DNA of 64,000 bases from Natronosalvus halobius (lineage in GTDB: Archaea > Halobacteriota > Halobacteria > Halobacteriales > Natrialbaceae): NCBI RefSeq assembly GCF_024138145.1, contig NZ_CP099997.1:1302001-1366000 (forward strand). Direction: 5' to 3'. Numbering within the stretch: position 1 is the first letter of the stretch; every line of letters starts with the position of its first letter. Position numbers and translations under genes: made by a program. Below are positions 56,170 to 58,054 of this stretch, one piece after another. The notes below the pieces were generated by a model, which saw only the letters and a list, made by a program, of their open reading frames with translations, was not told the DNA's origin and did not search any database.

Positions 56170-57354
56170 TCAATCGGCCGAACTCGAGGTCGCCTCGCTC
56201 TCGACGCCCGATTCGACGGCGTCGACGCGCTGGTCGGCGGGGAACCACGCCAGGTCGTGGTCGGCGGTCACCCTGACGGCGACGCGCTCGTCCAGGTCGA
56301 TCCGATCCGAGTGGTTGTGCATACACTCGATGGTCTCGCCGTCGTCGAGTTCGACACGGTAGAGGATCGTCGGGCCGAGGTAGCGCCGGTAGACGACCGT
56401 CCCGTCGGCCTCGGGGCCGCTTGCGGGGTAAGCCGTTACGTCGTCGGGGCGCAGGAGGAGGTCGATGTCGGTCCCGTCGTACTCGGCGACGAGGCCGTCG
56501 ACGTCCGCTCGCAGGACGCGACCCAGGGCCGTCGAGACGTGGTCGCCGCGGACGGTTCCCGACAGGAAGCTCGCGTGCCCGAGAAAGCCCGCAACGAACC
56601 GCGACTTGGGGTGCTGGAAGACGCGTTCGGGTTCGTCGATCTGCTCCAGATCGCCGTCGTTCATGACGGCCACCCGGTCTGACACCGAGAGCGCCTCCTC
56701 CTGGTCGTGGGTGACCGAGACGGCCGTCACGCCGGTTTCCTTGATGATTCGGCGAACCTCCTCGCGCATCTCGACGCGGAGGTCGACGTCGAGGTTCGAG
56801 AACGGCTCGTCCAGGAGTAACATCTCGGGTTCGGGAGCGAGCGAGCGAGCCAGTGCGACTCGCTGTTGCTGGCCGCCGGAGAGTTCCTCGGGATAGTCGT
56901 CGTCGTGTTCGCTCAGGTTCACGAGAGCGAGCAATTCGTCGACGCGGGCCTCCCTTTCGGCCGTGGGCCAGTCGGTGAGCCCGAACGCGACGTTCTCCCT
57001 GGCCGTCAGGTGCGGAAAGAGCGCGAACTCCTGGAATACGATGCCGACGCCGCGGTCTTCCGGCGGAACGAACGACCCGTTCCCGGCCACGGACGTCCCG
57101 TCGAGGCGAATCTCCCCGCCGTTCGGTCGCTCGAGGCCCGCGATGAGTCGGAGCGTCGTCGTCTTTCCGCACCCGGACGGCCCGAGGAGAGTCAGAATTT
57201 CGCCGTCCTGGACGGTGAGTGAGAGGTCGTCGATGACCGCCTCGGAGCCGTAGTGCTTCGCGACGCCCTCGAGTTCGAGGATGACGTCGCTGGTCGGCGG
57301 TGCGTCCGCGAGTCGGTCGTCGGCCGTCGATGTGAGCAGAGATTCGTGAGCCAT
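56170..57354 (-). CDS. Iron-type ABC ATPase (FbpC/PotA class), orphan
   Basis: A 394-residue ATPase: Walker A GPSGCGKTT, Q-loop VFQEFALFPHL, signature LSGGQQQRV, Walker B LLLDEP, switch SVTHDQEEAL. A TOBE-type C-terminal region follows. The sequence belongs to the ferric-iron/polyamine group. An iron-box-like palindrome in its promoter favours iron uptake. No permease or binding protein gene is nearby, so it must work with genes elsewhere. ATG at 57354 was chosen over TTG at 57360. Confidence 0.9.
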   Translation of the reverse strand: MAHESLLTSTADDRLADAPPTSDVILELEGVAKHYGSEAVIDDLSLTVQDGEILTLLGPSGCGKTTTLRLIAGLERPNGGEIRLDGTSVAGNGSFVPPEDRGVGIVFQEFALFPHLTARENVAFGLTDWPTAEREARVDELLALVNLSEHDDDYPEELSGGQQQRVALARSLAPEPEMLLLDEPFSNLDVDLRVEMREEVRRIIKETGVTAVSVTHDQEEALSVSDRVAVMNDGDLEQIDEPERVFQHPKSRFVAGFLGHASFLSGTVRGDHVSTALGRVLRADVDGLVAEYDGTDIDLLLRPDDVTAYPASGPEADGTVVYRRYLGPTILYRVELDDGETIECMHNHSDRIDLDERVAVRVTADHDLAWFPADQRVDAVESGVESEATSSSAD

Positions 57355-57376
57355 TGGCAACCGCTGTCTTCGTTAG

Positions 57377-57392
57377 TTTAGGCTACCCTAAA
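57377..57392. promoter_or_regulatory. Iron-box-like palindrome of the ABC ATPase promoter
   Basis: TTTAGG-CTAC-CCTAAA is a perfect 6-4-6 inverted repeat close to the core of DtxR/IdeR boxes. It lies between a TATA-like CTATAAGT (about 57395-57402, minus strand) and the start codon at 57354, a good place for an iron-dependent repressor. Confidence 0.6.
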
Positions 57393-57448
57393 TCACTTAT
57401 AGCTGCCGGTCCGTTCCCGACAGGTCAGAATCGAGTCCCTGCGAGTGG

Positions 57449-57922
57449 CTACAGTTCGACGCCGCTCGGGATCAGGCTCCGGTGTCGGAGCAGGTCGCCG
57501 TCGTCGTCGTAGACGAGAAACGTGCGTTTGTCGTACTCGACGAACGGTTCGCCGTCGAGGGTGATCGTGACGTGGTAGCGCCCGCCGTCGTCGGTCGTTC
57601 CCTCGCCGTAGCCACGGGCGGCCCGGATGAACTGGAGGACGTCCTGGGCAGGGACGTTGAGTTCGAGAACGAACTCGCCGGTCACGCGGTTCGTGACGCT
57701 GACGACGCCGTCGGTATCCTCGGCATCGACTGGACCCTGGAGTCGAAGCGCGGCATCCGTCTGGCCAGCCTCGAGTGGCTCGCCATCGGGGTCAGTAAGA
57801 CGATCTCGGAGAAGTGTCGCTGGACCGGTACAGTCGATCGTTACGGCAGGTTTCTTCGGGTCGCTGTCGGTCTCGATCCAGTCGACGTTGCTGGCAGATA
57901 GCGTGAAGTGCTCGCGCTTCAT
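57449..57922 (-). CDS. Conserved haloarchaeal protein
   Basis: A 157-residue soluble protein that starts KREHFTLSASNVDWIETD. The pattern of beta strands suggests a small C2-like or beta-sandwich domain. It matches a haloarchaea-only family (DUF5793-like, by memory) without known role. The ATG at 57922 matches that family start; a start at 57943 adds seven basic residues. It stands alone, divergent from the pilus operon. Confidence 0.75.
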   Translation of the reverse strand: MKREHFTLSASNVDWIETDSDPKKPAVTIDCTGPATLLRDRLTDPDGEPLEAGQTDAALRLQGPVDAEDTDGVVSVTNRVTGEFVLELNVPAQDVLQFIRAARGYGEGTTDDGGRYHVTITLDGEPFVEYDKRTFLVYDDDGDLLRHRSLIPSGVEL

Positions 57923-58054
57923 TACGCAAAGACGCCTTCGCACTCACGGGGTATGAACGTAACGCCCATTGTGCGTTTTCTGCACATCCGAGCAAGACAG
58001 CCCAGCCGGGAAGGCGGTGCTGACGTCCGTCGAATTCACGCGTCGGGCACTCGG

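Follow-up and report, generated by a model that had tools for sequence, protein, structure and literature searches.

The locus studied lies in a 64-kb window (the whole stretch of DNA that was analysed) and consists of an ABC ATPase gene, its promoter and a same-strand DUF5793 gene upstream (Table 1). Read along the minus strand, the promoter comprises ACCGGCA, one base, the TATA-like box, one base, the 16-base operator, a further 22 bases and the ATG; the initial annotation had likewise placed the palindrome between a TATA box and the start codon. ACCGGCA is taken by us to be the BRE (TFB recognition element). Within the operator the core TTAGG-N4-CCTAA is exact at 57378-57391, and the resemblance to DtxR/IdeR sites that was noted at the outset is borne out by exact TTAGG and CCTAA half-sites, inverted about a 4-base spacer.

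Table 1. Features of the ATPase locus and of related loci elsewhere in the genome (positions in the window unless prefixed; C1, genome coordinates; L005 and L007, extracted loci)
Feature	Position	Strand	Description	Basis
ABC ATPase gene, proposed FbpC	56170..57354	-	394 aa from ATG (TTG at 57360 possible)	ABC_tran + TOBE_2
Operator TTTAGGCTACCCTAAA	57377..57392	.	palindromic halves TTTAGG/CCTAAA, 4-base spacer	sequence, genome scan, conservation
TATA-like box CTATAAGTG	57394..57402	-	one base from operator	sequence; recurs in most rows of the 42-promoter alignment
ACCGGCA, probable BRE	57404..57410	-	before TATA box	conserved columns in site-anchored alignment of 42 promoters
DUF5793 gene	57449..57925	-	upstream neighbour of ATPase; would mark the place to which the ATPase gene moved	PF19106
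FbpA gene	C1:2293447-2294655		binding protein	
Protein B gene	C1:1963097-1963522		142 aa, DtxR family, no FeoA domain	PF01325
Ferredoxin gene	L007:4858-5196 (C1:2183755)	-	4Fe-4S	
Ferredoxin operator site	L007:5256-5269		~20 bases upstream of TATA box	
57-aa ORF	L005:5203-5373 (C1:1714179)	+	directly behind TATA box and iron box	

A set of 42 ATPase promoters from relatives, chosen by an exact match to the core, was aligned at the operator. In most rows both ACCGGCA and the TATA element stand right beside it, and the spacer is almost free, while the ten half-site bases are invariant in this alignment because exact matches were selected. The usual distance from TATA box to start in archaea would put the start of transcription just past the operator, and a bound dimer would therefore block the loading of polymerase. 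Since the DUF5793 gene ends 94 bases upstream of the ATPase, read-through into the ATPase is also possible.

Exact operator sites in the genome

The operator contains the sole exact TTAGG-N4-CCTAA of the window; at up to two mismatches, 4 matches were found there (4.55 expected by chance), the other three having two mismatches each. A genome-wide scan for the core, as suggested in the initial annotation, returned 8 exact copies and 0 for the reversed control (3.85 Mb, 3 contigs), where ~1.2 copies per genome are predicted from the base composition of the window and ~0.13 from its dinucleotide model. When up to one mismatch was allowed there was no genome-wide enrichment (19 matches compared to 45 for the reversed control), so only the exact form is informative; one-mismatch sites were accordingly dropped as extra members of the regulon and are mentioned only beside exact sites. 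Across 61 genomes (this one and 60 relatives) there were 544 exact sites and 71 controls, with more sites than controls in 56 genomes, equal numbers in two (G005, G020) and fewer in three (G037, G048, G053).

The classic 19-bp box TTAGGTTAGSCTAACCTAA was set aside as the common motif: the window site comes close to it, with 2 mismatches (a fit reached by 26 of 20,000 simulations), but the other seven sites differ from it at 4-8 positions, which is no better than chance.

Two of the seven further exact sites lie before FbpA and two before a Peripla_BP_2 lipoprotein gene, while single sites precede a Peripla_BP_2/FecCD permease/ABC ATPase set, a 4Fe-4S ferredoxin gene and a 57-aa ORF. The suggestion that the site links the ATPase to an iron regulon elsewhere is supported by these targets, the FbpA and Peripla_BP_2 genes among them, and by the retention of the ATPase site across the family (see below). 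A TATA-like stretch stands directly before the proximal site at the ATPase, at the 57-aa ORF and at both Peripla_BP_2 genes, and is weak at FbpA, whose site pair lies between FbpA and a divergent methyltransferase gene.

A second copy of the site (exact or one-mismatch) was observed 34-36 bases from the exact site upstream of FbpA (L008) and of the binding-protein genes of L009 and L006, and a comparable pair, 31-34 bases apart, occurs upstream of FbpA in many relatives. At the ferredoxin gene the operator precedes the TATA box, the opposite order to that at the ATPase, where it stands downstream of the box; such an order would fit activation by iron. The 57-aa ORF is divergent from an IF-2B-family gene and has no match in Pfam or NCBIfam.

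Likely partner genes and their arrangement among relatives

The closest solved relative of the ATPase is that of an iron ABC transporter (9j4r, E 3.5e-83). The best solved match of FbpA, the putative iron-binding lipoprotein, is a ferric-binding protein (7w3w, E 5e-57) and its solved relatives are nearly all iron-binding. Its NHYY motif aligns with NNYY of the solved ferric-binding proteins, and the tyrosine pair, which in FbpA proteins serves as iron ligands, is kept. The following gene, FbpB, encodes a permease with two fused BPD_transp_1 domains. Both genes stand together behind two copies of the operator, and of the 19 clusters of PF00528 permeases theirs alone lacks an ABC ATPase within 5 kb (the search covered PF00528; FecCD permeases fall outside this family). 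The nearest ABC ATPase to fbpAB is 16.4 kb away on the opposite strand. The initial annotation described the window ATPase as lacking nearby partners, and this holds insofar as the PF00528 permease domain nearest to its own domain is 13.9 kb away and has an ATPase of its own 93 bp from it, but specific likely partners are present at a distance of 0.94 Mb. The ATPase is most likely the FbpC of a ferric FbpABC importer, judging from these sequence comparisons.

The FbpA family gave 62 matches, of which 61 were read and 58 had upstream sequence; 49 of these 58 carry an exact site. The site was found upstream of 49/54 binding proteins with the tyrosine dyad and 0/4 without it (Fisher test, P = 3e-4, ignoring relatedness). 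The four dyad-less proteins are second copies in G008 (L112), G027 (L107), G032 (L128) and G036 (L140), while the five dyad-bearing ones that have no exact site are those of G033, G042, G053, G060 and the C94 copy of G046; in G033 and G042 a one-mismatch copy lies just upstream. The dyad-less binding protein and its paralogous permease have no iron box; in three of these genomes (G008, G027 and G036) a same-family ATPase adjoins that permease. As both the dyad and the box are missing, this branch probably carries a cargo other than ferric iron.

Where FbpB has no FbpA beside it and upstream sequence was available, an exact site was present in 14/14 cases, 87-238 bp upstream of the match; several of these sites sit between divergent genes and could serve either. 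In G007 (L091), G002 (L095) and similar loci, two genes next to the lone FbpB are flanked on either side by exact iron boxes; judged by eye, this pair may encode a flavin dehydrogenase and its small subunit.

The arrangement of the genes was compared among the 61 genomes using thresholds of E up to 1e-100 for the ATPase, 1e-60 for the permease and 1e-30 for FbpA, at which they were found in 58, 57 and 57 genomes, respectively. Among the 63 ATPase matches, 17 have the permease no more than 371 bp away on the same strand and 6 have it on the opposite strand within 8 kb. The remaining 40 are split from it: 19 by more than 100 kb on a single contig, 20 only in the sense of lying on a different contig, and 1 in a genome with no permease. 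A site was counted if it was exact and no more than 350 bp upstream, or no more than 100 bases from the start of the match. By this measure it was present in 35/39 split ATPases with readable upstream sequence, in 6/6 near or divergent ones and in 1/17 with a permease neighbour on the same strand, that is, in 41/45 unlinked or divergent ATPases compared to 1/17 (Fisher test, P = 3e-10, ignoring relatedness). No site was found at four split ATPases: those of G048 and G034, and the second copies of G010 and G058. Exact half-sites with a free spacer were also seen at the same ATPase promoter in all of the first 29 relatives read (29/29).

A set of named genomes, which overlaps in species with the 61-genome set, supplied 80 loci; 17 from bacteria or remote paralogues were left out and L205 is cut at the gene, leaving 62 to be counted. 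The site was present in 41/41 loci with no permease and in 0/21 with a permease directly upstream. The permease-adjacent loci were from Haloferax, Halogeometricum and Halomarina, together with second copies in Natronococcus and others, and the closest named relatives were from Natrialbaceae, Natrinema, Natronococcus, Halobiforma and similar. The operator thus follows the promoter, being present where the ATPase is a separate transcription unit.

The DUF5793 gene adjoins the ATPase in 30/63 of the relatives' loci and 41/64 of the named loci. The 30 loci make up a clade of 31 (tree support 97) except for G009, where the contig is cut; 29 members of the clade have the site, G034 does not and G009 is unreadable. 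Outside the clade the site was seen at 12 more ATPases, split or divergent. The best tree has 8 changes of arrangement, and only 3 independent pairs fall on well-supported branches, so that a test corrected for relatedness was not significant for these 3 pairs (1.6 in the predicted direction, 0 in the opposite direction and 1.4 with no difference). This distribution suggests that the splitting of the ATPase was a single old move to a place beside the DUF5793 gene.

Candidate regulators and the reading of the operator

Three clear PF01325 (Fe_dep_repress) proteins of the DtxR family, here called A, B and C, were identified in the genome, and a member of this family is the most likely reader of the operator. 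Protein A (229 aa) has a FeoA domain and occurs in 60/61 genomes. Protein C (170 aa; L153) was ruled out as the reader, being found in only 4/61. In the search of the 61 genomes for protein B, nothing better than cross-hits was obtained from G037, G048 or G053, and G010 gave no match. The first three of these encode A, and they are the only genomes in which controls outnumber sites; their assemblies are 78, 78 and 70% complete and two belong to one genus. The absence of B was associated with site count (Mann-Whitney test, P = 0.0016, G010 included, uncorrected). Protein A is disfavoured as the sole reader, since it is present in three genomes whose boxes do not exceed the control, and may be a co-regulator. 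Two observations run counter to B: 3 sites are present in G010 (70% complete), where neither A nor B was found, and in G005 and G020, which do have B, site counts stay at the control level. On balance, co-occurrence in these few genomes favours B, a short protein with four cysteines.

In an alignment of B-type proteins (n = 21, six rows being cut at an internal methionine), a helix cysteine and both cysteines of a CPxC motif are present in 21/21 and a tail cysteine in 20/21. When B was aligned with solved members of the family, the histidine of the HRLIE-type segment was matched by tyrosine and that of LEH by serine, both histidines being metal ligands in the DtxR family; the LEH position is alanine or glycine in some B-type relatives. 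In G044 and G059, the two rows that diverge most, both histidines are retained alongside the cysteines. It is conceivable, if rather doubtful, that this 142-aa paralogue and not a canonical DtxR/SirR-like protein is the reader, that it senses iron by thiolates, perhaps through an Fe-S cluster, and that a 14-bp single-dimer operator is its normal target. Of our proposals, the four-cysteine reader is the most daring and the least firmly supported.

We consider it probable, with good confidence, that the palindrome is a DtxR-family iron operator which keeps the FbpC ATPase in step with the distant fbpAB genes of one split importer. In an ancestor of the family the ATPase gene would have come apart from fbpAB and settled beside the DUF5793 gene, with the operator at its own promoter. 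In an iron-replete cell a DtxR-family dimer on the operator, beside the TATA box, would keep polymerase out; at low iron the dimer would leave, and the ATPase and fbpAB would both be made. Binding, response to iron, repression and assembly of the three subunits are the inferred steps of this account.

Among other readings, the ATPase could be a shared component of several importers, with iron as one input among others, by analogy with what is outlined for MsmX and the sugar importers of Bacillus. It stands alone beside DUF5793 throughout a clade, and in G002 and G007 it is 96% like our own while the permease is only 60-61% alike. In G034 no match to FbpA (E up to 1e-30) or FbpB (E up to 1e-60) was found and the ATPase (L141:2612-3748) is intact beside DUF5793, so it may have another job there. 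However, every other PF00528 permease cluster of the genome studied here has an ABC ATPase within 5 kb, and the operator is found on the ATPase promoter wherever this is a separate unit yet is absent from G034, a genome that lacks the ferric partners: there ACCGGCA and the TATA box are kept and the operator is eroded, and 15 exact sites are present elsewhere in that genome. A shared ATPase is therefore considered unlikely.

It is very unlikely that the split importer carries phosphonate or another substrate and that its control by iron is incidental. The top NCBIfam models for the ATPase, binding protein and permease alike are those for 2-aminoethylphosphonate, but all score far below their curated cut-offs (43 bits compared to a cut-off of 393 for the binding protein), and the solved relatives and retained tyrosine pair of the binding protein point to iron. 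For the ATPase every NCBIfam model falls below cut-off; phosphonate and PotA models come first and the ferric model fifth (285 bits, cut-off 496).

All three DtxR-family proteins score best against models of manganese MntR, again below cut-off, and the operator might thus answer manganese through an MntR-like protein. This has only a slight chance of being correct, given that the targets are an FbpA with a tyrosine dyad, Peripla_BP_2/FecCD importers and a 4Fe-4S ferredoxin, that the boxes are missing from dyad-less FbpA paralogues and that a ferR signal is reported in PMC11349517 for the fhu operons of Haloferax volcanii. A chance palindrome with no role, to which the lack of enrichment of one-mismatch copies might point, is scarcely credible, as the conservation of exact half-sites around a free spacer in the first relatives and in the named loci with no adjacent permease already contradicts it.

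Comparison with known systems

The mechanism of the regulon is of a known kind; the ATPase as a target and the split pump are the additions. A literature search by titles and the beginnings of abstracts found no paper on this ATPase, which may already be listed in primary papers. The reading of the operator as an iron operator gives a likely function and partners to a conserved, unlinked ABC ATPase of an archaeal family, and describes a transporter that is encoded in several transcription units and would be coordinated by a common operator. It also bears on the single-dimer sites of DtxR/IdeR. According to PMC8464063, one IdeR dimer binds a half site and TTAGGNNNNCCTAA (14-bp) is proposed as a redefined single-dimer target; the role of such half sites is left open there and again in PMC10317159. 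In haloarchaea, as far as sequence comparison goes, 14-bp single-dimer sites look like an ordinary iron operator with a candidate reader.

As for haloarchaeal regulators, PMC11349517 lists Idr, SirR and TroR as candidates for the control of iron homeostasis. PMC11218638 describes denitrifying Haloferax mediterranei, in which iron-uptake genes, including one for an iron(III) binding protein, are repressed and a FeoA-containing SirR-like gene rises. The FerR regulon of haloarchaea (Leyn and Rodionov 2015, as cited in PMC11349517) is also of the DtxR family and, from that account, lies before siderophore importers, including those of the Peripla_BP_2/FecCD type.

The operator resembles the iron boxes of actinobacterial DtxR/IdeR, as presented in PMC8464063 and PMC10317159, in its TTAGG/CCTAA halves and 4-base spacer, and resembles IdeR-repressed genes in being placed over the promoter; it differs from the classic two-dimer box in belonging to an archaeal promoter with a TATA box. 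The proposed importer is like FbpABC in the adjacent tyrosines of FbpA, the fused two-domain permease and the FbpC-like ATPase with its TOBE domain. Unlike in FbpABC, the ATPase is encoded away from the other two components under an operator of its own, and some relatives have all three genes (FbpA, FbpB and the ATPase) in different places, each behind a site.
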